A DNA stretch of 64,000 bases from assembly GCF_014843005.1 (NCBI RefSeq), contig NZ_JACYXM010000006.1, positions 310,001 through 374,000 on the forward strand, written 5' to 3'. Each line of letters opens with the position of its first letter. The stretch's first letter is position 1. Positions 38,025-51,880 of the stretch are shown here, in pieces. Under the pieces are notes generated by a model, which saw only the letters and a list, made by a program, of their open reading frames with translations, searched no databases and was not told where the DNA came from. The DNA is from Rhodanobacter sp. DHG33 (lineage in GTDB: Bacteria > Pseudomonadota > Gammaproteobacteria > Xanthomonadales > Rhodanobacteraceae). The position numbers and the translations under genes are program-made.

Positions 38025-38653
38025 CCGGCGGAAGGCAGCCGCGGCAGATGCCAGCCCCAGAGCACCGCGCCCAGGCGCAGGCCGAGGATGACCAGCACGC
38101 CGGCGGTGATGGCCCAGGATGACCGCAGGCCGACGGCTTTCAGCAGAAGATAGACCACGATGCCGGCGATGGCCGCGCTGGCGTAGATGTCCCGGCGGAA
38201 GATCAAGGGAACCTGCGCGCTCATCATGTCGCGCAGCATGCCGCCGGCGGCGCCGGTCATGGTGCCCATCAGCACCACGACGATGGGCGAGTGCCCGTCG
38301 GCCTCGGCCACCTGCGCACCGCTGATGGCGAACAGCGCCAGGCCCAGCGCGTCGGCCACCAGCAGGGCATGGTTCAAGGGCGGCAGCCAGGCGTTCCAGA
38401 GCATGGAGAGCAGGGCCGCCGCCAGAATCACCACGAGATAGCGCGCGTCGCGTATCCAGAAAATCGGATGCCGGTTCAGCAGCAGGTCGCGCAGCGTGCC
38501 GCCGCCGATCGCGGTGATCGCCGCGAGGGCCAGTCCACCCAGCAGATCCATGCCGGCGTGCGCGGCCGTCAGGGCGCCGCTGATCGCGAACACGGCGACG
38601 CCGATCAGGTCGAACAGATAGAGCAGCAAGCGTGGCGTCCGGCTGTCGGTCAT
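38021..38653 (-). CDS. trimeric intracellular cation channel (TRIC/UPF0126) family protein
   Basis: 210 residues, seven hydrophobic helices in two repeats. Each repeat has the glycine-rich motif: 'AITAIGGGTLRDLLLNRHP' and 'GTMTGAAGGMLRDMMSAQVP'. The family comprises potassium-permeable channels resembling animal TRIC. ATG 38653 is preferred over 38689 because it starts directly before the first helix ('LLLYLFDLIGVAVFAISG'). Divergent from hslR, with 38 bases between starts. Confidence 0.87.
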   Translation of the reverse strand: MTDSRTPRLLLYLFDLIGVAVFAISGALTAAHAGMDLLGGLALAAITAIGGGTLRDLLLNRHPIFWIRDARYLVVILAAALLSMLWNAWLPPLNHALLVADALGLALFAISGAQVAEADGHSPIVVVLMGTMTGAAGGMLRDMMSAQVPLIFRRDIYASAAIAGIVVYLLLKAVGLRSSWAITAGVLVILGLRLGAVLWGWHLPRLPSAG

Positions 38654-38678
38654 GGCTGGGCCCAGTGGGAATCCGGGC

Positions 38679-38684
38679 GATAAT
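38679..38684 (+). promoter_or_regulatory. -10 box immediately before hslR
   Basis: GATAAT at 38679-38684 ends seven bases before the hslR ATG at 38692, within CGATAATGCC, a 10-base sequence also seen just before tgt. A leaderless transcript is likely. The same 38-base gap must hold the TRIC-like promoter on the other strand. Confidence 0.4.
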
Positions 38685-38691
38685 GCCATCG

Positions 38692-39099
38692 ATGAACGCC
38701 CCGCATACCGACAAACCGGCCGAAGTGCGTGCCGACGTGTGGCTATGGGCCGCGCGCTTCTTCAAGACGCGCAGCCTCGCCAAGCAGGCCATCGACGGCG
38801 GCAGGATCGACGTCAACGGCGTGGGCTGCAAACCGGCGAAAGCCCTGCGCGTGGGCGACGTGCTGAAGATCGGCCGCGGCGAGGAGCGGCTGGAAGTCGA
38901 GGTGCTGGCGCTGGCCGACAAGCGCGGCCCGGCCAGCGTGGCGCAGGCGCTTTACCGCGAGAGCGAGGCCAGCCGGCAGGCGCGCGAAGCATGGCGCGAG
39001 CAGCGCCGCCTGGTCGGCGTACAGGCGCCACGCCAGCGCCCGGACAAGCATGCACGCCGTGAATTGCGTCGCCTGAAGGACGATGCGGGCGGTTTTTGA
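38692..39099 (+). CDS. hslR: ribosome-associated heat-shock protein Hsp15 (S4 domain)
   Basis: 135 residues. An S4 RNA-binding domain spans about 10-75: 'VRADVWLWAARFFKTRSLAK', 'GGRIDVNGVGCKPAKALRVGD'. The Lys/Arg-rich C-terminal tail with 'RPDKHARRELRRLKD' is the pattern of Hsp15, which recognises stalled 50S subunits carrying nascent peptidyl-tRNA. Lengths agree (E. coli 133). The upstream frame to 38632 is antisense to the neighbouring gene and has no conservation. Confidence 0.9.
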   Translation: MNAPHTDKPAEVRADVWLWAARFFKTRSLAKQAIDGGRIDVNGVGCKPAKALRVGDVLKIGRGEERLEVEVLALADKRGPASVAQALYRESEASRQAREAWREQRRLVGVQAPRQRPDKHARRELRRLKDDAGGF

Positions 39100-39217: not shown

Positions 39218-39766
39218 ATGGATGGTATGGGTTTTTTCAAGCGTTGGCTGGGCGGCGCGGAGGCTTCGGCGCAGCGGCCGGAGGATCGGAAGCAGGCGCC
39301 GACCGGTACGCGCATGCTGGTGGTGGACGACTCGCCCACGATCTGCGCGGTGCTGGGCCGCATGCTGGAGCAGGACGGTTACGCGGTGCAGAAGGCCGCC
39401 GACGGCGAGCGCGCGCTGGAACTGGCCAAGGCCGAGCTGCCCGAACTGATCTTCCTCGACATCGTCTTGCCGGGCATCAACGGTTTCGCCGTGCTGCGCG
39501 CACTGCGTCACGACCCGCTGACCGCGCGCATCCCGATCGTGATGATCAGCGGCAACCCGCAGGCCACCGAGCAGTTCTACGTGCAGCGCTACGGCGCCGA
39601 CGACTTCATCAAGAAGCCGTTCAACCGGCACGATGTCACCAGCAGCATCGGCCAGCTGGTTCGCTCGGGGCGGCTGCCTGCGCGCGATCTCGCCTTCGAG
39701 CGGATGCTCGTGCAGGGCCTGAAGGACGAAGTCGGCCATGCGGGCATGGCGTCCCTCGCAACCTGA
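39218..39766 (+). CDS. receiver-domain response regulator (PilG-like)
   Basis: 182 residues: short N-terminal 'MDGMGFFKRWLGG', a low-complexity linker, then a CheY-like receiver from about residue 33 ('RMLVVDDSPTICAVLGRML') with the phospho-acceptor Asp in 'LIFLDIVLPGINGF', Thr/Ser in 'IVMISGNPQATEQF' and Lys in 'DDFIKKPFNRHDV'. There is no output domain; the C-terminal 35 residues are unstructured. AGGAG at 39206-39210 supports ATG 39218. The region around the Asp and 'ATEQFYVQRYGADDF' is shared with the regulator at 46270. Probably acts by protein contact. Sequence resemblance to PilG/PilH type regulators of motility is only suggestive. Confidence 0.8.
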   Translation: MDGMGFFKRWLGGAEASAQRPEDRKQAPTGTRMLVVDDSPTICAVLGRMLEQDGYAVQKAADGERALELAKAELPELIFLDIVLPGINGFAVLRALRHDPLTARIPIVMISGNPQATEQFYVQRYGADDFIKKPFNRHDVTSSIGQLVRSGRLPARDLAFERMLVQGLKDEVGHAGMASLAT

Positions 39767-39790
39767 CGAAACGAGTTTCCCCGCGACGAA

Positions 39791-39820
39791 AAAGCCCGGA
39801 GGTGCGAGCCTCCGGGCTTT
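39791..39820 (+). terminator. rho-independent terminator after the first receiver gene
   Basis: AAAGCCCGGAGG (39791-39802) pairs with CCTCCGGGCTTT (39809-39820), followed by CTTTTG; a string of A on the other side allows bidirectional use with the gene at 39889. Confidence 0.9.
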
Positions 39821-39888
39821 CTTTTGATCCCCGCTTAAGTCGTTGCCACAACAAGCATCGACGAGCTGGGCAACGCCGAAACGGACGC

Positions 39889-40239
39889 TCAGTGTTTCTG
39901 CTTGTAGATATGGCGGCTGTTGCGGTTTTCGGAGCGGTTGAGGTTCTTCTTTTCCTGCTTGGTCAGGTGGCCGTTGTGCTTGGCCTCGTCCACGCTTTCG
40001 CGGCGGCCGATGTTCGCGTCGTGGGTTTCGTCGCGGGTGGCCTGCGCCTGCGTCATCGTGCCGTTCTTCAGGCCGTTGTCGATGCGGTTCTGCTGGTTGT
40101 CCAGGCGGTTGTTGACCTCGTTGACGCGCGGATGGCCGGGCACATCGGTTTGCGCAGCGGTCTGCGCCATGACCTGGCCACCGACCATGGCGCTTCCGAT
40201 GAGCAGACCGAACAGGACAATCTTCGACTTTGCATTCAT
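39889..40239 (-). CDS. small exported protein with two NG-x-[LM]-T repeats
   Basis: 116 residues. Signal peptide about 1-25 ('KIVLFGLLIGSAMVGGQVMA'), then a helical, charged mature domain with two similar modules: 'NGLKNGTMTQAQATRDE' and 'EAKHNGHLTKQEKKNLN', each a K/L-x-N-G-x-[LM]-T-x-[QE] pattern followed by E/N and R residues. The pattern recalls small periplasmic proteins of Proteobacteria with repeats of this sort, whose role is unknown. ATG 40239 is chosen because the signal peptide begins there; the longer frame to 40341 has no such signal. AGGAA lies upstream. Confidence 0.7.
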   Translation of the reverse strand: MNAKSKIVLFGLLIGSAMVGGQVMAQTAAQTDVPGHPRVNEVNNRLDNQQNRIDNGLKNGTMTQAQATRDETHDANIGRRESVDEAKHNGHLTKQEKKNLNRSENRNSRHIYKQKH

Positions 40240-40644
40240 GGCAATGTTTCCTTCGAGTAAGCGGATTGCATGATTGGGATGCGCCGCTTCGCCGTTGCCG
40301 GAAAAGCAGCATGCATGCGTCGAGTGGGCCAGCGCCTTCACTGCCTTGCCGATGGATCTCCTCCCGCGTCCTGCCCCATCGGTGCCCTTGGCTCACGCAG
40401 TTTCAGGAAACGAGCCGCCAGGAACGGTGTTGACAGTCTTTCCGGTAAAGATTTCGTTCGGTTCAGTTGGCGCACAACTTCATGTATCCGGGCTGTCCGC
40501 GATTGGGGGCGCGGCGGAAGAATGGTTTGCACCAGTCGCACGATCGACGGGCTGCGGCCATGCGGATCGGCGCCGCGACGAAGGCGGCGATCGGCGCGGT
40601 GTCCGTCATGGGCTTTCAGGGATCGCGCTCGGTGATTGCCAGGT
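40240..40644. other. 405-base region without a gene
   Basis: No frame here has coding character in either strand. The left end (near 40240-40320) should hold the promoter of the gene at 39889. The right end lies downstream of the TetR gene. TTGACA at 40430-40435 on the plus strand looks like a -35 box, but TTCGTT lies at the -10 spacing, so I do not call a promoter. Confidence 0.4.
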
Positions 40645-41235
40645 TCAGTCGATCAGCTCGTGTGCCGTGATGCGCGCCGCTGCACGTATTTCCTCGCGGA
40701 AAGCATCGTCCTCGATGGTGCGCGCCAGCACCATGCCGCCCACGCACAGCGCGGCGAGCGCGAGCCCATGCCGCCGCGCTTCCTGTGTTCCCGCGGATAC
40801 GTCGGCGCTTTGCGCGAGCATGCCGGCCATGCGCTCCAGCAGTTCGCGATAGGCGTGTTTCACGCCGGGGCTGGCGCGGGCCACGTCGGAGGGCAGAGCG
40901 ATCATCGGGCAGTGGCCTTCGATGTCGTCCAGGTGTTCGCGGGATAGGTAGACGTCGACCATCTGGCGGGCAAACGCCACCCCGCAGCGCTCCGGATCGA
41001 AGTCCAGCTGCGGCCAGCGATCGATTGGGTTGAAGTCCTGATAGGCCGCCACCGCTTCCACGAACAATTCCTCCTTCGTGCGGAAGTGGTTGTAGAAGCC
41101 GCCGCGGGTGAGCTTGGCGCTGGCCATGATCTCGTCGATCGAGACCTCGGTGAAACCCTTGCGGTTGAACAGCACGCGGGCGCACTCGACGATGCGCGCG
41201 CGGGTCTGCTGCTTGTGTTCGGTGCTGTACGGCAT
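40645..41235 (-). CDS. TetR-family transcriptional regulator
   Basis: 196 residues. The N-terminal helix-turn-helix is 'IDEIMASAKLTRGGFYNHF' with the TetR-type 'RARIVECARVLFNRKGFTEV' before it, and then 'RTKEELFVEAVAAYQ'. The C-terminal helical domain should bind a small ligand. ATG 41235 is preceded by a GGAAA-type site. It is divergent from a GST gene, with a perfect 18-base palindrome in the shared promoter region at 41279-41296, so it most likely represses both. Confidence 0.88.
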   Translation of the reverse strand: MPYSTEHKQQTRARIVECARVLFNRKGFTEVSIDEIMASAKLTRGGFYNHFRTKEELFVEAVAAYQDFNPIDRWPQLDFDPERCGVAFARQMVDVYLSREHLDDIEGHCPMIALPSDVARASPGVKHAYRELLERMAGMLAQSADVSAGTQEARRHGLALAALCVGGMVLARTIEDDAFREEIRAAARITAHELID

Positions 41236-41278
41236 GGCGGTTTCCTCCCGTGCCGGCACAGCGTAGCGCCGACGCTGA

Positions 41279-41296
41279 ATATGTTCTTGAACATAT
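41279..41296. promoter_or_regulatory. perfect palindromic TetR-type operator
   Basis: ATATGTTC (41279-41286), TT, GAACATAT (41289-41296) is a perfect inverted repeat with two central bases. It lies 43 bases before the TetR start on one side and 46 bases before the GST start on the other, and overlaps the AT-rich stretch that would carry the -10 boxes. It is the obvious operator. Confidence 0.8.
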
Positions 41297-41342
41297 ATAG
41301 ATGCGACGCAGACTGTGCTCCTCCATCACCGAGGAGCACCCC

Positions 41343-41969
41343 ATGAAGCTGTACTACGCCGAGACCTTCAATCCTCGCAGGGCCTGTGCGGTGGCGCGGT
41401 ATCTCGAAGCGCCGGTCGACTATGTGCGCGTCGACCTCGCGCGCGGCGAGCATCGGCAGCCGCCGTACCTCGCGCTGAACCCGAACGGCAAGGTGCCGCT
41501 GCTGGTCGACGGCGACCTGCGCCTGTGGGAGGCGGACGCGATCATGGTGCATCTCGCGGCGCAGGCCGGCTCGGACCTGTGGCCATCCGTTCCGGCGCAG
41601 CAGGTCGAGGCAGTGCGCTGGCTGTCCTGGAACCAGGCGCATTTCTTGCGGCACGGTGGCGCGCTGTACTTCGAGCATCTGATCAAGCCCTGGCTGGGCA
41701 TGGGCGAGGCGGATGCGGTCGCGGTGGCGGAGGCCGAGAAGTTCTTCCGGCATTTCGCGGCGGTCCTCGACGCGCATCTGGCTGCGCACGAATGGCTGGT
41801 GGGCGACCGGCTCGGCGTGGCGGATTTCGCCGTTTCCACGCCGCTGGGCTGGGCGAAGGAAGCCCGCTTGCCGCTGGAAGGTTTCGAACATCTCGCGCGC
41901 TGGCATGGGCAGCTACAGGCCCTGCCGGCATGGCGCGAACCGTTTCCGCAGATGGCCGCCGCGGCCTGA
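41343..41969 (+). CDS. glutathione S-transferase family protein
   Basis: 208 residues. The N-terminal thioredoxin-like domain has 'MKLYYAETFNPRRACAVARY' and 'LNPNGKVPLLVDGDLRLWEADAIM' (the conserved cis-Pro and S/E-A-D motif that binds glutathione); the helical C-terminal domain runs from about residue 85 with 'GDRLGVADFAVSTPL'. GAGGAG six bases before ATG 41343 sets the start. It is a candidate detoxification enzyme, under the divergent TetR regulator. The downstream reductase begins 21 bases after its stop. Confidence 0.88.
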   Translation: MKLYYAETFNPRRACAVARYLEAPVDYVRVDLARGEHRQPPYLALNPNGKVPLLVDGDLRLWEADAIMVHLAAQAGSDLWPSVPAQQVEAVRWLSWNQAHFLRHGGALYFEHLIKPWLGMGEADAVAVAEAEKFFRHFAAVLDAHLAAHEWLVGDRLGVADFAVSTPLGWAKEARLPLEGFEHLARWHGQLQALPAWREPFPQMAAAA

Positions 41970-41990
41970 CCTTCATCCGAGGTACCTGTC

Positions 41991-42575
41991 ATGCGCAGAC
42001 TCATTGCTTTCGAAATGGTGACGCTGGACGGTTGCTATGCCAGCACGGACGGCGACTTCGGCTGGACCCATCGGCGGGAACGCGATGCGGAATGGGATGC
42101 CTTCGTGCAGGGCAATGCGGGCAGCGGCGGCGAACTGGTGTTCGGGCGCGTCACCTACCAGATGATGGCGGCCTGGTGGCCCTCGCCGGCGGCGGCGCAG
42201 AACGAGCCGCTGGTGGCCGAGCGCATGAACGCGATGCCGAAGTTCGTCTGCTCGCACACGCTGCACACTGCCGCATGGAACAACACCACCGTGCTGGAGG
42301 GCGATGCGGTCGCGCGGCTGCAGGCGCTGAAGCGCGAGCCCGGCGCGGATCTGGTGATCCTCGGCAGCGGCGGCCTGGTGGCGTCGCTGGGGCAGGCCGG
42401 AGTGATCGACGAATACCAGCTGGTGATCATTCCGATCGTGCTGGGCAAGCGCGGCAGATCGCTGTTCGGCGGCTTCGATGGCGGCATGGATCTGCGCCTC
42501 GTCCAGTCGCGGCGCTTCGGCAACGGCAACATGCTGCTCTGCTACGAACCGCAGGTGCGCGCCGCGGAACATTGA
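41991..42575 (+). CDS. dihydrofolate reductase family protein (RibD-C-like)
   Basis: 194 residues. The beginning 'RRLIAFEMVTLDGCYASTDG' and the 'ELVFGRVTYQMMAAWWPSP' segment match the YyaP/YwjB group of DHFR-like proteins; 'DLVILGSGGLVASLGQAGVIDEY' is the C-terminal nucleotide-binding motif. It probably reduces some substrate with NADPH; real dihydrofolate reduction is not shown. Translation should start at ATG 41991 behind AGGTA. It closes the TetR-controlled cluster and a strong hairpin follows. Confidence 0.85.
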   Translation: MRRLIAFEMVTLDGCYASTDGDFGWTHRRERDAEWDAFVQGNAGSGGELVFGRVTYQMMAAWWPSPAAAQNEPLVAERMNAMPKFVCSHTLHTAAWNNTTVLEGDAVARLQALKREPGADLVILGSGGLVASLGQAGVIDEYQLVIIPIVLGKRGRSLFGGFDGGMDLRLVQSRRFGNGNMLLCYEPQVRAAEH

Positions 42576-42665
42576 GGCCGCATGCTTGCGTCCGCGCCGT
42601 CGCGATGGCACAAGCGCTGGCGAAGAAGCTGCGCGTGGCGATTGCCGATGCCGAGCCTGCATGCG

Positions 42666-42700
42666 AAACGGGCCGCCAGGAATTTCCTGGCGGCCCGTTT
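42666..42700. terminator. bidirectional hairpin after the reductase gene
   Basis: A perfect 15-base stem (42666-42680 AAACGGGCCGCCAGG against 42686-42700) with a five-base loop separates the convergent reductase and TonB receptor genes. It has T-runs on both ends (three each), so it should terminate from both sides. Confidence 0.75.
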
Positions 42701-42723
42701 GTCTGCCTGGTCAGAACGGAGAA

Positions 42724-45700
42724 TCAATAGTCGTAGGTGATGCCGAACTGCACGTAGCGCGGGCTTTCCAGGCTGTACGGCAACAGATGCTGGGGATTGA
42801 TCGAGGTGACCACCGTGCCGTTCTCGACGGTGGGGAAGCCCTGATTGTACTGGCCGTAGTACTGCGTGACGTTTTGCTCGTTGAACACGTTGTGGACCTG
42901 CAGCTGGAAGTCCAGCTTGTGGTTGGCGAAGGCCGGCCGGTAGTCAACCTGCAGGTTCAACTGATGCGTCCACGGCGTGAAGCCGGTGGTGCCGCCCGGC
43001 GTCGGTACGCCGTTGCACCAGTGATAGGACGAGCTGTAGCCGCCGGGATCGCTTTGGTTCGGGCCGTAGAAGCCGAGGCAGGACACCGGCGTGCCCGAGG
43101 CGATGCGGTAGGTGCCGCCGACGCTCCACTCCGGCGTGATCTGGTACGAACCGTACAGGCGCAGCTGGTGCTTCTGGTCGTTCGCCTGGAGGCCGTTGGC
43201 ATACGACATGATCTGGGCGAAGTCCCACTGCTCGGTGATCGACTGCGAGCTGCCGCCCTGGCCGATGTTCGATTCCACCGGCCCCTCGGTGTCGCCGTAG
43301 CTGCGCGAGAAGGTGTAGTCGATCTTGCCGTACCACTTGCCGTCGAACGGGTGCTCCAGGTACAGGTCCAGCGAGTAGTAGTTGCGCTTGAGCTGCGGGA
43401 AGCCGAAATCCGCGTTGGTCAGCTTCACTTCGCTATAGCCGCCGCTGCCGTTCGCGATCCGCAAGGTGTTGGCGACGCCCGGATTGATCAGGAGGCTGCC
43501 AAGGATGGCGCTGGGATCGATGGTGACCCCCTGCGCCGCGGCCGCGTTTTCGATGATGGCGGCGTTGGCTCCTTCGGAGCCGTACCAGTCGTCGATGGCG
43601 CGACCCAGCTTGTTGACGGTGCCGGTGGCGCCGTAAACCCAGCTCTGGCCGAACATCTTGAACTGCTGCTGCATGCCCAGCACGAACTGATCCTGGTACT
43701 CCGCCTTGAGGTTCGCGGACGTGGTCTCCTTGGCCGGGATCGAAGTGCCGTTTTCGCTGTTGACGTAGTAGGTGTTGTTCGGAAAGGTGTTCGGCACCAG
43801 CACCGGATTGACCGGCGTGCCGTCGGCATTGATGCCCGAGTACGTGTAGAACTGTTCCGTGTACAACGGATCGCTGGCCTCGCGCAGCGCCACGGAAGTG
43901 GGCATCGCCAGGTAGTAGCGGCCGGCGTTGCCGAACACCTTCATGCTGGAGTCGCCGAACACGTCCCAGCTGAAGCCGATGCGCGGCGCCCACTGCGGCT
44001 TGGTCAGGCGCAGGTAGGGCTCGCCTGCCGGGTTGAAGTTGGTGAACTGGTCGTTGCGCAGGCCGAGGTTGAGCAGGAAGTTCGGCGTGATCTGCCAGTT
44101 GTCCTGGATGTACTGCGCACGCTGCATCACCTCCACCGAGGCGCTGCTGGTGAACACGTACTTTTCCACGTAGCAGCCCTTGGTGCCGCCCACGCAGGGC
44201 GTACCCGGCCCAGCTGTCCCGACGCCGGCGAGTTGGATGATGTCGGCGCCCGGCGCGCCGGTCTGCCCGTAGCTCCAGGAATACCCCGGACCGCTCATCG
44301 ACACGCCGTCGTCCTTGTCGAGGCTGGTGTCGTTGTCGATGCCGAACTGGATGTCGTGATTGCCCAGCTTCCAGTCCAGATCCAGGCGCAGGTTGCGCAC
44401 CTCGGAACGGTGGGCCGGGTCGTTCAAGTTGAGGTAGAGGCTTGAGTTGTGGATGTAGCAGGAGGCGCACGACAGGTAGGCCGGGTTTTCGTTCGCAGTG
44501 CTTCCGACGTAGGTCAGGCTGGGGTCGTAGCCCGGGTAACCGGTGTAGTACGTGCCGTTCATCTTGCCGTACAGGAAGTTCAGCGTGAGGTTGTCGGTGA
44601 TGTACGAGGTGTACTTGGCGATCCAGATCTTGAAGGCGGTTTTCGAGCGATCGCCTTCGGCCTCGAATGAATTGGCCGTGCGAGTGGCGTTGTCGTAGTT
44701 GTAGTACTGCTCGGGGGCGTTCTGCGCCGAGTTGTAGATGCTGGTCAGCGACAGGATGTTGTTGGAATTGATGTTCCAGTCCAGCTTGCCGTAGAACTTG
44801 GGGTCGCTGTCCTTCCAGTAGCCGACGTTGCCGGCGTTGACGGTGCCCACCGTGTGCCCCTGCGACTTGTCGACTTCGGCCGACAGGAACAGGAACAGCG
44901 TGTCCTTGATCAGCGGACCGCCGAGGTAGGCGTCGTACACTGTGTTCCAGCTGCTGTTGGCCTGGCGGTATTGCTCGAGATTGCCGTACTCCTCGCCCGC
45001 TGTGGTGCTCAGCGGGTTGTTCCAGTAGATGTTGTTGGCGCTGCTCTGCGCGAAGGCCGGCTGCCACAGCACTTGGCCACCGAAGTGCCAGTCGTTGGTG
45101 CCGCTCTTGCCCACCTGGCTGATCACGCCGCCGGCCGAGCGGCCGTACTGCGCGCCATAGCCGCTGGTAAGGGTCTGCTGCTGGTCGATCGAGCCGTAGG
45201 GCAGCGTGATGCCACCGGTGTTGCTGAGCGGGTCGGTGGTGTTGAAGCCGTTGATGTAATAAGCGTTCTCGACGATGGACGAGCCGCCGAACGAAACCAG
45301 CGGCTCGCCGGTGGGGCCGGCGCCGAGCATGGACGCGCCCGAGATGGTGCCCGGCGCCAGCAGGGCGATGGCCGCCGAATTGCGCGCCAGCGGCAACTGG
45401 GTCAGCTGCTGCGAGGTGATGGTCAGGTTCTGGGTAGTCGAGGTCACGTCGATCGCGGGCAACGCATTCGCCGTCACGGTTACCGAGCTCAGCGTGCTGG
45501 TGTCCTTGCCGCCGGGTTGTGTGAAGTCGGCCTCGGAGGCACCGCCTGCGCTCGGATTGACGTGATTGTGGGTCTGCACCACGGCACCGTTCTGGATGAG
45601 ATTGACCGTGTAGTCGCCGACCGGCACGGTCACCGAATAGTGACCGGTGCTGTCGACCGGCACGGTGCGGTTGAAGCCCGCGCCGCCGATGACCTGCACG

Positions 45701-45852
45701 GTGGTGCCGGACGCGGGAGCACTGCCGAAGATGGTGCCGGTGGTCGCCTGGGCGAATGCCTGCCCGGACAGGCCTGCCCCCATCGCGATGGCCGCGGTCA
45801 GCGCGGTGCGGCGTGTGATGCGGCGCGACGATGCTTGGTGCTTGCTATTCAT
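42724..45852 (-). CDS. Oar-type TonB-dependent receptor with carboxypeptidase-regulatory domain
   Basis: 1042 residues. Signal peptide about 1-35 ('TALTAAIAMGAGLSGQAFA'), an N-terminal carboxypeptidase-regulatory-like beta domain ('VPVGDYTVNLIQNGAVVQTH'), a TonB-box-like 'STLSSVTVTANAL', a plug with 'YYINGFNTTDPLSN' and 'GYGAQYGRSAGGVISQVGKS', then a long barrel ending in the aromatic terminus 'VQFGITYDY'. This is the Oar type of the Xanthomonads and myxobacteria. Start at ATG 45852 follows GAGGGG. Ligand unknown; proteins of this sort have been tied to peptide or polysaccharide uptake. Confidence 0.88.
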   Translation of the reverse strand: MNSKHQASSRRITRRTALTAAIAMGAGLSGQAFAQATTGTIFGSAPASGTTVQVIGGAGFNRTVPVDSTGHYSVTVPVGDYTVNLIQNGAVVQTHNHVNPSAGGASEADFTQPGGKDTSTLSSVTVTANALPAIDVTSTTQNLTITSQQLTQLPLARNSAAIALLAPGTISGASMLGAGPTGEPLVSFGGSSIVENAYYINGFNTTDPLSNTGGITLPYGSIDQQQTLTSGYGAQYGRSAGGVISQVGKSGTNDWHFGGQVLWQPAFAQSSANNIYWNNPLSTTAGEEYGNLEQYRQANSSWNTVYDAYLGGPLIKDTLFLFLSAEVDKSQGHTVGTVNAGNVGYWKDSDPKFYGKLDWNINSNNILSLTSIYNSAQNAPEQYYNYDNATRTANSFEAEGDRSKTAFKIWIAKYTSYITDNLTLNFLYGKMNGTYYTGYPGYDPSLTYVGSTANENPAYLSCASCYIHNSSLYLNLNDPAHRSEVRNLRLDLDWKLGNHDIQFGIDNDTSLDKDDGVSMSGPGYSWSYGQTGAPGADIIQLAGVGTAGPGTPCVGGTKGCYVEKYVFTSSASVEVMQRAQYIQDNWQITPNFLLNLGLRNDQFTNFNPAGEPYLRLTKPQWAPRIGFSWDVFGDSSMKVFGNAGRYYLAMPTSVALREASDPLYTEQFYTYSGINADGTPVNPVLVPNTFPNNTYYVNSENGTSIPAKETTSANLKAEYQDQFVLGMQQQFKMFGQSWVYGATGTVNKLGRAIDDWYGSEGANAAIIENAAAAQGVTIDPSAILGSLLINPGVANTLRIANGSGGYSEVKLTNADFGFPQLKRNYYSLDLYLEHPFDGKWYGKIDYTFSRSYGDTEGPVESNIGQGGSSQSITEQWDFAQIMSYANGLQANDQKHQLRLYGSYQITPEWSVGGTYRIASGTPVSCLGFYGPNQSDPGGYSSSYHWCNGVPTPGGTTGFTPWTHQLNLQVDYRPAFANHKLDFQLQVHNVFNEQNVTQYYGQYNQGFPTVENGTVVTSINPQHLLPYSLESPRYVQFGITYDY

Positions 45853-46269
45853 CGAATACCCCTCGTGGCCAAACTGCTGTTTGGTTCGGTTGCGATGGTC
45901 GGATCGCCATCTGACCCGGCGCGTTTCTCTACGCGCCGGAGAAGTCAGGCCAACGGAACCCGCTCCTGACCTGGAATTGCCCGGAAGCATCCGCCTCGTT
46001 GCGAGGCGCCCCTTGACTCACTTCGGGCAAATCGAACCTACGAGTATCGAAAGAAAAAATCAAATAACAAAAAATTGTGAAAGTATGTATAGGTTCCGAT
46101 TCTTGAACTTTGCCTTTCGTTGAGGGTGGCGGGCTTGGTGCTAGCACTCCTGGCCTTGGGCGCGCACTGCGCCGCGATGCCCGCGCCCAAGGCAACAACT
46201 TGCGCTCCCCCATGCCGGCACGGAAACTGGCCCGACGCGGCCGTAGGTGTCCGCGAGGGGGGCAGGGGA
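45853..46269. other. divergent control region with AT-rich block and 12-bp inverted repeat
   Basis: This 417-base gap lies between the TonB receptor and the second receiver gene. Bases 46040-46110 are distinctly AT-rich compared with the rest of the window and probably contain the TonB receptor promoter with a leader of some 200 bases. On the other side is a perfect 12-base inverted repeat, GCCTTGGGCGCG (46153-46164) against CGCGCCCAAGGC (46182-46193). No gene is seen. Confidence 0.55.
46153..46193. repeat. perfect 12-bp inverted repeat before the second receiver gene
   Basis: Arms 46153-46164 and 46182-46193 are exact reverse complements with a 17-base spacer. It ends 76 bases upstream of the receiver start and might serve as an operator or as a leader hairpin. 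Confidence 0.6.
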
Positions 46270-46851
46270 ATGGCCGGTTTTGCTTTGTTCAAGCGCCTGG
46301 TGGGCGGCAACGACCGTCGCCATAGCGGGCCCCGCGTGCGTGCACCGGTGGCCACTCGTGTGTTGGTAGTGGACGACTCGGCGACGATCCGTGCGGTGCT
46401 GGGCAAGATGCTCGCGCAGGATGGCTACGAAGTGCTCAAGGCCGCCGATGGCGAAGCCGCCTTGGCGATGGCTCGAAGCGAGCAGCCGGCCCTGGTTTTC
46501 CTCGACATCGTGTTGCCCGGCATGTCCGGCTTCGAGGTGCTGCGCACCTTGCGCCGCGAAGCCGCGACGCAGCACGTTCCCATCGTGATGATCAGCGGCA
46601 ACGTGCAGGCCACCGAGCAGTTCTACGTGCAACGCTACGGCGCCGACGATTTCATGAAGAAGCCGTTCGGCCGCGAGGAGGTGTTCGAGCGCATCCGGCA
46701 GCTGGTGTTGGCCGGGCGCCTGCCCGGGCGCACGTCGACCGCCGAACCCGAGTTGCCGCAGGACGTGAGCCAGGCCGAGTGGGATGCGATTCCCGACATC
46801 GCGATGCCGGACGAGGCGCATATGACGCCGCCAAAACCGGACGATCAGTAA
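46270..46851 (+). CDS. receiver-domain response regulator, paralogue of the 39218 gene
   Basis: 193 residues: 'MAGFALFKRLVGG', linker, then a receiver from about residue 30 ('RVLVVDDSATIRAVLGKML', Asp in 'LVFLDIVLPGMSGF', 'IVMISGNVQATEQF', Lys in 'DDFMKKPFGREEV') and an acidic 55-residue tail. It has no output domain. AGGGGA before ATG 46270 decides the start; an upstream frame to 46120 covers the inverted repeat. Both the N-terminal F-K-R-x-x-G-G and the central part match the other regulator in this window, so the two arose by duplication. The kinase partner is not in the window. Confidence 0.82.
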   Translation: MAGFALFKRLVGGNDRRHSGPRVRAPVATRVLVVDDSATIRAVLGKMLAQDGYEVLKAADGEAALAMARSEQPALVFLDIVLPGMSGFEVLRTLRREAATQHVPIVMISGNVQATEQFYVQRYGADDFMKKPFGREEVFERIRQLVLAGRLPGRTSTAEPELPQDVSQAEWDAIPDIAMPDEAHMTPPKPDDQ

Positions 46852-46884: not shown

Positions 46885-46914
46885 AAACCCTCCCCATCAT
46901 GGGGAGGGTTTTTC
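46885..46914 (+). terminator. rho-independent terminator after second receiver gene
   Basis: AAACCCTCCCC (46885-46895) pairs with GGGGAGGGTTT (46901-46911), followed by TTC. Two more inverted repeats (46925-46942 and 46955-46972) lie between it and the katG stop. The main stem is symmetrical and could serve the convergent katG too. Confidence 0.88.
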
Positions 46915-49303: not shown

Positions 49304-51880
49304 TCAGCGCAGCTGCTTGAGCCGGTAGAGCGCTTCCAGGGCGTCGCGTGGCGTCAGCGCGTCGGGGTCGATGGCGTCCAGTGCATGCTCCACCGCCGAC
49401 GGCGCGGGCGGCGCGAACAGGCCGAGCTGCGGCGAGGCGTCGGCGGCGGGTGCCGGCGCGCCGACGTGCGCGTGCATGCCGCGCTCCAGCTCCGCCAGCG
49501 TGCGTCGCGCATCGGCGATCACCGCTTTCGGCAAGCCGGCCAGTGCCGCCACCTGCAGGCCGAAGCTGCGATTGGCCGGGCCTTCCTTCACCGCGTGCAT
49601 GAACACCAGTTGCTCGCCGTATTCGACGGCGTCGAGGTGCACGTTGGCGATGCCGGCATAGTCGTTGGCGAGTTCGGTCAGCTCGAAATAGTGCGTGGCG
49701 AACAGCGTGAAGGCACGGCTGCTCGCGGCCAGATGCACCGCCGCAGCGCGCGCCAGCGCGAGGCCGTCGTAGGTGCTGGTGCCGCGGCCCACTTCGTCCA
49801 TCAGCACCAGGCTGTGCGCGGTGGCGTTGTGCAGGATGTTGGCGGTTTCGCTCATCTCCACCATGAAGGTGGACTGGCCGCGCGAAAGGTCGTCGCCCGC
49901 GCCGATGCGGGTGAAGATGCGGTCGACGGGGCCGATCGCGGCGCGGCTGGCCGGCACGTAGCTGCCGATGTGGGCGAGCAGCACGATCAGCGCGTTCTGC
50001 CGCATGTAGGTGCTCTTGCCGCCCATGTTCGGGCCGGTGATGACCAGCATGCGGCGATCGTCGTCGAGCATCAGGTCGTTCGGCTCGAACGGCTCCTCGC
50101 GCACCTTTTCCACCACCGGGTGGCGGCCGCGCTCGATGGCGATGCCGGGTTCGTCGGTGAGCTCTGGCGCCGCCCAGTCCAGCGTCTCGGCGCGCTCGGC
50201 CAGCGTGGCCAGCACGTCGAGTTCGGCGATGGCGGCGGCAGCCTGCTTCAGCGGCTCCAGCCGTCCGGTGAGCGTGTCGAGCAGCGCTTCGTACAGCGCG
50301 CGTTCGCGCATCAGCGAGCGTTCCTTCGCGCTGAGCACCTTGTCCTCGAACTGCTTGAGTTCCTCGGTGATGTAGCGCTCGGCGTTCTTGGTGGTCTGGC
50401 GGCGCGTGTAGTGCGTGGGCGCCTTGTCGGACTGCGCCTTGCTGACCTCGATGTAGTAGCCGTGCACGCGGTTGTAGCCCACCTTGAGCGTGGGGATGCC
50501 GCTGGCGGTCTTCTCGCGTTCTTCCAGCTCGACCAGGTACTGGTCGGCATGCGTGGAGAGCCGGCGCAACTCGTCCAGTTCGGCGTCGTAGCCGTCGTTG
50601 ACGACGCCGCCGTCGCGTTGCAGCACAGGCGGGTGTTCGACGATGGCGCGCTGGAGCAGGTCGGCGGTTTCGGCGTGGTCGCCGATGCGGTCGACCAGGG
50701 CGTGCAGCAGCGGGCTGTCGAGCGCTGCGATGCGCGCGCGCAACTCGGGCGCCGCCAAAAGACCATCGCGCAGCGTGGAAAGATCGCGCGGCCGCGCCGA
50801 GCGCAAGGCCACGCGGGCAAGGATGCGCTCCAGGTCGCCGATGCCACGCAGCTTCTCGCGCAGTGCCTCGTGCCCGCGGCTGTCGATCAGCGCGCCGATG
50901 GCCTGATGGCGCGCGCGCAGCACCTCGCGCGAACGCAGCGGCCGGTTGAGCCAGCGGCGCAGCAGGCGTGCGCCCATCGGCGTCACGGTCTCGTCGAGCA
51001 CGCCGAGCAAGGTGTGTTCGGTGCGACCGCTGGGATGCGTGTCGAGTTCGAGGTTGCGGCGCGTGGCGGCGTCCAGCGCGATGGTCTCGCCGGCCGATTC
51101 CACCGCCATGCCGCTGAGGTGCGGCAGCGCGCTCTTCTGGGTTTCCTCGACGTAGCCGAGCAGGCAGCCGGCGGCGCCGATGGCCAGCGGCAGCTTGTCC
51201 ACACCGAAACCGCCGAGGTCGCGCGTGCCGAAGAAACGGTTGAGCTCACGCCGTGCGGCGTCGCTCTCGAAATGCCATGGCGGCCGCTTGCGCAGGCCGG
51301 GCAGGGTGGCGACCAACTTCGGCCACGCCACGCTTTCGTCCACCAGCGTCTCGGCCGGTTGCAGGCGCGCGAGTTCCGCGGCCAGCGCTTCGGCGCCCGG
51401 CACCTCGCTGAGCAGAAAGCGGCCGCTGGAGAGATCCACCCAGGCGAGGCCGTAACCGTCCTTGGCGCCGGCGCTGATCGCCAGCAGCAGGTTGTCGCGA
51501 CGCTCCTCCAGCAGCGCGGCGTCGGTCACCGTGCCCGGCGTGACCACGCGCACCACCTTGCGCTCCACGATGCCCTTGGCCAGTGCCGGGTCGCCGATCT
51601 GTTCACAGATCGCCACCGACTCGCCGAGGCGTACCAGCTTCGCCAGGTAGTTCTCCACCGCATGGTACGGCACGCCCGCCATCGGGATCGGCGCGCCCGC
51701 CGACTGCCCGCGCTGGGTCAGCGTGATGTCCAGCAACCGCGCCGCCTTGCGCGCATCGTCGTAGAACAGCTCGTAGAAATCGCCCATGCGGAAGAACAGC
51801 AGCACGTCGGGATGCGCCGCTTTCGCGGTGAGGTACTGACGCATCAAGGGAGTGTGCAGGGAGAGATCGTCGTGGCTCAT
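49304..51880 (-). CDS. mutS: DNA mismatch repair protein MutS
   Basis: 858 residues. The mismatch-binding domain begins near the N-terminus with '[15 protein letters not shown]' containing the Phe-x-Glu motif. The connector, core and clamp domains follow; the ATPase has Walker A '[15 protein letters not shown]', Walker B '[16 protein letters not shown]' and the composite-site signature '[11 protein letters not shown]'. The C-terminal tail '[16 protein letters not shown]' is the usual tetramerisation/clamp-interacting end. It shares the window's largest repair cluster with recA on the other strand. Upstream of ATG 51880 there is no strong Shine-Dalgarno. Confidence 0.95.

Follow-up and report, generated by a model that had tools for sequence, protein, structure and literature searches.

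Two anciently diverged receiver-only response regulators with an anchor-like N-terminal segment in Rhodanobacter

Single-domain response regulators are numerous, and many are without a known target. We have analysed a 64,000-nucleotide stretch of the Rhodanobacter sp. DHG33 genome (contig NZ_JACYXM010000006.1, positions 310,001 to 374,000; hereafter the window), which encodes two such regulators, RR1 and RR2 (Table 1). Judged from sequence, these proteins belong to a family of single-domain regulators marked by an anchor-like tip and an arginine cap, and the window holds two anciently diverged forms of it. The family offers several handles for finding a target: a putative anchor, an arginine element at a near-fixed position, two alternative tails and a natural fusion, which names one type of partner, an HD-GYP phosphodiesterase.

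As an initial annotation of the window had it, RR1 and RR2 are receiver-only: Response_reg is the sole Pfam domain in each, and neither has an output domain. They are 61% identical over 166 amino acids (aa) in a pairwise alignment, and both carry FKRxxGG close to their N-termini and, letter for letter, the block QATEQFYVQRYGADDF-x-KKPF, similarities that the same annotation had pointed out. Within the genome the two are each other's best match (62%), the other receivers found by the search (38 matches) being at most 39% identical and mostly partial. Among named relatives, the nearest to RR2 that was found is from Rhodanobacter sp. 7MK24 (locus L050, 90%), very near records having possibly been omitted by the search. 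Among the best 25 of 96 and of 99 NCBIfam models for the two proteins, none reaches its own cut-off; PHROGs gave matches only to families without known function; and the best 60 of 131 matches to solved structures are generic receivers such as PleD.

Relatives were collected by searches whose results overlap. RR1 found matches (E <= 1e-30) in 92 of 147 genomes of its own family (f1), from 13 of 26 genera, with one copy in 72 of the matched genomes and two in the other 20. Across the order, RR2 found matches in 108 of 298 genomes and 29 of 89 genera. By hand count the union is 143 distinct matched genomes, our own included. The surroundings of 140 matched genomes (two were omitted), together with the window, yielded the set of 165 copies used below; second copies on other contigs, such as most of those in family f10, fall outside it. 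A class-wide profile search (E <= 1e-32) matched 107 of 281 genomes, mostly over the receiver alone. By eye, the 14 best members from outside the order (L276-L289) have an R-R-x-x-x-R-like linker in 13 cases, L288 being without the RR pair, and most have a comparable N-terminal segment. Genera are given below by handles, g1 being the genus of the window.

The residues of receiver phosphorylation are kept throughout this set. The acidic pair, the acceptor Asp and the Ser are present in 165 of 165 copies, and the Lys in 164 of 165. A natural replacement of the lysine occurs at L154 (g14), which reads FISMPF vs FIKKPF. In an AlphaFold model of RR2, the predicted local distance difference test score (pLDDT) of the receiver is mostly above 90.

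Ahead of the receiver, the pattern hydrophobic-x-x-hydrophobic-[KR]-x-hydrophobic-hydrophobic is found in 147 of 165 copies, RR1 and RR2 included, as against 18 of 1009 control proteins of the same loci and 120 of 2940 shuffled sequences. Among the 18 copies without it are near misses such as FQRIFGG, and one that lies at a contig end. Regardless of the exact pattern, the median helical moment is 0.61 in the 147 segments and 0.41 in controls. The C-terminus of the genome's own MinD, KKGFLQRVFGG, which we take to be a membrane-targeting sequence, is similar to RR1 GFFKRWLGG: GFLQRVFGG may be set beside the RR1 start MDGMGFFKRWLGG and the RR2 start MAGFALFKRLVGG. In MinD, however, the segment stands at the C-terminus of an ATPase, whereas in the regulators it stands at the N-terminus of a receiver and its membrane binding is putative. 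The distance from this segment to the arginine cap described below ranges from 3 to 63 residues while that from cap to receiver is nearly constant, an arrangement that fits a tether. The segment is not part of the receiver, and its conservation extends over the order and, judged by eye, to distant members; a membrane anchor is therefore its likeliest predicted role, in keeping with the earlier suggestion that it may localise the two proteins.

Several points weigh against an anchor. The pattern was defined after the sequences had been seen, and the search for it covered up to 104 aa ahead of the receiver in family members but the first 45 aa in controls, a bias that favours the family. Moreover, 11% of controls reach the family's median helical moment, and RR1 has a moment of just 0.50 (RR2, 0.60). 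AlphaFold places an isolated helix at residues 5-11 of RR2, but with low confidence (mean pLDDT 54 for residues 1-10). The segment might instead be a docking helix for a partner protein or for the receiver itself, which we consider improbable. An amphipathic helix this short, with its conserved Phe/Leu face, would suit protein binding equally well, and the segment persists internally, as FSGLRKLFGRR, in the fusion protein L217 described below; against this reading stand the likeness to the presumably membrane-targeting MinD end, the conservation across families of a hydrophobic/basic pattern and not of exact residues, and the widely variable tether length.

Trees show that the two forms are old. 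In a tree of the receiver columns, built without the cap and tail columns, RR1 groups with the single copies of g8, g10, g14, g18 and g20 and with the downstream copies of g19, and RR2 lies outside this RR1 clade. In the 78-row receiver tree, of which 37 rows are RR1-type, the clade has a bootstrap of 99 and a support of 98 in the SH-like approximate likelihood ratio test (SH-aLRT). Forcing all 21 g1 copies into one clade is rejected by the approximately unbiased (AU) test (p-AU 0.0195). A recent duplication within the genus is therefore rejected. A first quick tree omitted L154, which was placed in the RR1 clade by hand, and had L138 on a long branch, probably mis-cut. In a MutS tree, with g24 chosen as outgroup, g4, g8, g10, g14, g18, g19 and g20 fall among or beside g1, so that loss of either copy is the simplest account. 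By these trees RR1 and RR2 are old paralogues, of which genera have apparently retained one or the other variously; the duplication would postdate the split from g24. The annotated duplication thus stands as an old event and not as a recent one, since RR1 and RR2 are not each other's closest relatives in the tree.

The two forms separate cleanly at sites that were not part of the tree input, so that a division of labour could be tested by swapping short elements. The first such element is the arginine cap. R-R-x(3-4)-R precedes the receiver in 106 of 107 copies outside the RR1 clade and in 0 of 58 inside it, and the sole copy outside the clade without the motif is L217, the fusion protein. Relative to the acidic pair, the copies outside the clade have Arg at -18 in 105 of 107 cases and at -13 in 104 of 107. 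This near-constant position, set against the variable anchor distance, places the cap in the receiver module. Spacing with four residues occurs in 14 of the 106 cap copies, RR2 (RRHSGPR) among them, and RR2 is therefore without a strict RxxxR. PilZ domains contain an RxxxR motif. Neither RR1 nor RR2 has a Pfam match to PilZ, and the likeness to PilZ c-di-GMP receptors is limited to a short R-R-x-x-x-R in the linker of most relatives.

The second element is the tail. Of the RR2-like copies of g1, g4, g13, g19 and g24, 39 of 42 have IPD[IV][AG][ML] after the receiver, as do 12 of the 58 copies in the RR1 clade (all g19) and 0 of the 65 remaining copies. The statement that the tails differ completely is correct for RR1 and RR2 but fails in 12 g19 genomes, where the RR1-type copy carries the IPDIAMP tail too. 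The RR2 tail is acidic, as annotated; that of RR1, annotated as basic, is approximately neutral (RDLAFERMLVQGLKDEVGHAGMASLAT). A C-terminal hydrophobic-Ala-Ala resembles the ssrA-like degrons of ClpXP. C-terminal [LIMV]A[ATV] occurs in 41 of 58 RR1-clade copies, in 0 of the 107 outside the clade and in 19 of 1009 controls; for strict [LIMV]AA the counts are 34 of 58, 0 of 107 and 16 of 1009, the RR1 of the window ending in LAT. RR1 and RR2 thus differ systematically in tail and linker, which is consistent with different partners, as their tails had already suggested to the initial annotation. Low-complexity tails of hundreds of residues follow the receiver at L239 and L242 (f2g78) and at L202 (f3g28).

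Neighbouring genes suggest one type of partner, the enzymes of cyclic-di-GMP (c-di-GMP) turnover. In f10, which comprises a single genus (g35), 10 of 12 loci have an HD-GYP match (DUF3391 + HD_5) at 83-172 bp from that of the regulator; at the twelfth locus, L225, the stretch ends near the regulator gene. At L217, also in f10, DUF3391, HD_5 and the receiver are joined in one protein of 654 aa. In genome G223, open frames of 613 aa that contain HD_5 and receiver matches share a contig and a strand, which points to a putative second HD-GYP/receiver fusion, although the receiver match includes one TAG. HD_5 is rare in these genomes, with 2-3 matches each in six relatives, and its scarcity makes the HD-GYP adjacency unlikely to be due to chance. 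Of the 8 f2g58 loci, 6 have an EAL-GGDEF match at a distance of 39-288 bp, and beyond it, at 1.3-1.5 kb, comes an HD-GYP match. Among the distant loci L276-L289, 8 of 14 have a c-di-GMP enzyme match, within 2 kb in three; a PAS-GGDEF-EAL gene adjoins the regulator gene at L284 and a REC-GGDEF gene adjoins it at L276. At L279, L280, L282 and L289 a common neighbour is a GAF-domain gene (by Pfam for L279, by eye for the others).

There is also evidence against a general role in c-di-GMP turnover. With 31-49 matches per genome in six relatives, GGDEF genes are frequent, so the lone GGDEF adjacencies at L284 and L276 are weaker evidence. Of 30 genera from the order, 25 lack any GGDEF, EAL or HD-GYP match at E <= 1e-10 in their stretches, which are at most 19 kb and in some cases end at contig ends; g1, g14, g18, g19 and g20 are among these genera. 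Neighbours in the window's own family (Hsp15, KatG, MutS and others) are uninformative on regulator function. In the Rhodanobacter genome itself there are 15 GGDEF matches, none linked to the RR1/RR2 locus, and an HD_5 search found no HD-GYP protein, a separate search for HD-GYP proteins having had no positive control. A partner of the f10 type is therefore not transferable to this genome. Gene neighbourhoods show a putative c-di-GMP link for some relatives, and not for Rhodanobacter.

We tentatively propose a membrane-tethered single-domain regulator that acts by docking, in some lineages on c-di-GMP turnover; this is quite possible, if short of probable. The layout seen in the sequences is a MinD-type segment, a variable stretch, the arginine cap (in RR2 and nearly all copies outside the RR1 clade) and a complete receiver. 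The segment would hold the receiver at the inner membrane, where a kinase encoded elsewhere would phosphorylate it. The phosphorylated receiver would then dock onto a partner protein, which in some lineages is probably an enzyme that makes or breaks c-di-GMP. RR2 would work in this way with its retained cap and IPDIAMPD tail. RR1 most likely has a different partner, or serves as a phosphate drain on the same kinase, because its cap and tail are gone and its anchor and receiver are kept; it may be turned over via its Ala-Ala-like C-terminus. A two-branch switch of RR1 and RR2 is possible, in a family with one copy in 72 of 92 matched genomes and two in 20. A more elaborate scheme, which we regard as very unlikely, is that the R-R-x-x-P-R cap is a compact element binding c-di-GMP. 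The ancestral, RR2-type protein, a membrane-tethered switch, would then read both phosphorylation and c-di-GMP and control a local c-di-GMP enzyme, RR1 would be blind to c-di-GMP and short-lived by C-terminal proteolysis, and the pair would split one signal at the membrane into a branch gated by c-di-GMP and an ungated one.

The kinase of the pair would lie outside the window. An HATPase_c search detected no histidine kinase in the 64 kb, the sole match in the range of the window sitting at HtpG, and the annotation that no kinase lies between or beside the regulators is borne out. The genome has 40 HATPase_c matches, HtpG and other non-kinases included. These observations, together with the missing output domain and the complete phosphorylation residues, would also suit a phosphate-sink or relay pair, CheY1/CheY2- or Spo0F-like, on one hybrid kinase, with the N-terminus bringing both proteins to a membrane kinase and with no direct output protein. 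We hold this to be somewhat unlikely: it leaves the conserved arginine cap, the IPDIAMPD tail and the HD-GYP fusion unexplained, and a sink that requires both proteins is not the rule in a family where single-copy genomes are 72 of 92.

Docking by a tethered receiver also has to be compared with motility control. RR1 and RR2 resemble PilG and PilH, the model named in the initial annotation, in being two receiver-only paralogues, and RR1 shares 29-38% identity with both receivers of a pil-chp-like cluster. However, pilG and pilH sit in the pil-chp cluster by PilJ and ChpA, whereas RR1 and RR2 neighbour Hsp15, KatG, MutS and others. A separate cluster of two receivers, a PilJ-type receptor and a ChpA-like kinase is present on contig C22 of the same genome, which rules out that RR1 and RR2 are PilG and PilH. 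More broadly, they could act on a motor protein as regulators of the type IV pilus or flagellum, by analogy with PilG/PilH or with EmvR and McvR of Xanthomonas. Known single-domain regulators of Xanthomonas do act on motility (PMC8995066, PMC11973254, PMC7029496, PMC7698356), and at L288 the regulator gene is, by eye, beside type IV minor-pilin-like genes. The chance of such a role here nevertheless seems small. The genome has its own pil-chp-like cluster, and of the genes compared around RR1 and RR2 none was recognised as a motility gene. EmvR (134 aa, D59), McvR (D55) and RR35 (128 aa) offer scant room, if any, for an anchor and a cap, and the same holds for PilG/PilH of Xanthomonas, whose receivers span 14-127 and 2-115 and have no N-terminal extension of this type (PMC7029496).

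Other known systems resemble the family in part. CheY-like single-domain regulators share the lone receiver, the full DD/D/S/K set and the absence of an output domain, but the family differs from them by its N-terminal amphipathic segment, its arginine cap and the RR2-like tail motif. Cle proteins have a CheY-like receiver, a short arginine-containing extension outside it and a link to c-di-GMP. Their arginine peptide, however, is C-terminal, with the motif [YF]xGP[DE][RK]R (PMC5677366), whereas the arginine element here is N-terminal (R-R-x(3-4)-R) and its c-di-GMP binding is putative; by eye, the Cle motif is absent from RR1 and RR2. EpsW is likewise a single-domain regulator, with post-translational action on a partner protein, and its abstract mentions no anchor (PMC12802240); its model, NF041866, scores 74.4 bits for P0002 and 58.4 bits for P0001, below the cut-off of 200. 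Response regulators of the HD-GYP type (RpfG/NosR) are approached by L217, in which a DUF3391-HD-GYP phosphodiesterase is fused to the family's receiver. The best NCBIfam model in this comparison, NF053512, gives 113.6 bits vs a cut-off of 400. The receiver of L217 is C-terminal, whereas those of the window stand alone in a genome without an HD_5 match. BtsR of Stenotrophomonas was rejected as the same kind of regulator for its D58 and its operon kinase (PMC11404848). Among the literature matches listed (titles and starts of abstracts, with subscription journals largely outside), no receiver-only regulator with such an N-terminal architecture was found.

The order of the surrounding genes is partly conserved. 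Where a genus of f1 has the regulator, an Hsp15-like gene is near it in 10 of 13 genera, for at least some loci, and MutS is within the stretch in 9 of 13. The usual order is transporter, Hsp15, regulator, then KatG, TetR and GST (glutathione S-transferase), then MutS. Two-copy genera are g1, with Hsp15 - RR1 - ... - RR2 - MutS, and g19, with RR2-like - Hsp15 - RR1-like; 3 of 12 g1 genomes have a single copy. In g1 the two copies lie about 0.2 to 6.5 kb apart, so RR1 and RR2 do not form one compact operon. As annotated, each is followed by its own hairpin (Table 1) and each start is preceded by a purine-rich stretch (AGGAG for RR1, GAGGGGGGCAGGGGA for RR2). The surroundings are different in g15, g26 and g9.

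Table 1. Positions, in window coordinates, of RR1, RR2, their elements and the flanking genes.
Feature	Position	Strand	Basis or remark
Hsp15-like S4 protein	38632..39099	+	95.4 bits, below NCBIfam cut-off of 148
RR1, receiver-only response regulator, 182 aa	39218..39766	+	open reading frame (ORF) + Pfam
RR1 N-terminal amphipathic segment, residues 4-13 (MGFFKRWLGG), anchor candidate	39227..39256	+	
RR1 receiver domain, residues 34-143; acidic pair D37 D38, acceptor D81, S111, K133	39317..39646	+	
RR1 C-terminal LAT; RR1-clade relatives often LAA, MAA, IAA (putatively degron-like)	39755..39763	+	
Intrinsic-terminator-like hairpin 3' of RR1, strong	39791..39820	+	hairpin scan
RR2, receiver-only response regulator, 193 aa	46270..46851	+	ORF + Pfam
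RR2 N-terminal amphipathic segment, residues 4-13 (FALFKRLVGG); helix 5-11 predicted, low confidence	46279..46308	+	
RR2 arginine cap, residues 16-22 (RRHSGPR), family motif R-R-x(3-4)-R	46315..46335	+	
RR2 receiver domain, residues 31-143; acidic pair D35 D36, acceptor D79, S109, K131	46360..46698	+	
RR2 tail motif, residues 168-181 (QAEWDAIPDIAMPD), kept in RR2-like copies	46771..46812	+	
Hairpin, 9-bp stem + T-run, 3' of RR2	46887..46913	+	read by eye; absent from the scan's list
MutS, other flank of the syntenic interval	49304..51880	-	named by recognition, not by family search

Some further genes near the regulators may be recorded. In g26 (L189-L193, L197), a MiaA-like IPP (isopentenyl diphosphate) transferase gene is directly downstream of the regulator in 6 of 10 stretches (Pfam was run on L190); a neighbouring 730-aa frame has no Pfam match and may be spurious. 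Between RR1 and RR2 in the window, 42724-45990 encodes a TonB-dependent Oar-like receptor (outer membrane protein barrel, with weak CarboxypepD_reg and plug matches), matched at the same place only in L112 (48%) among 11 other g1 stretches. Beside RR1, 39889-40341 encodes a small protein without a Pfam match, signal-peptide-like by eye, relatives of which are present in several g1 and g19 stretches.

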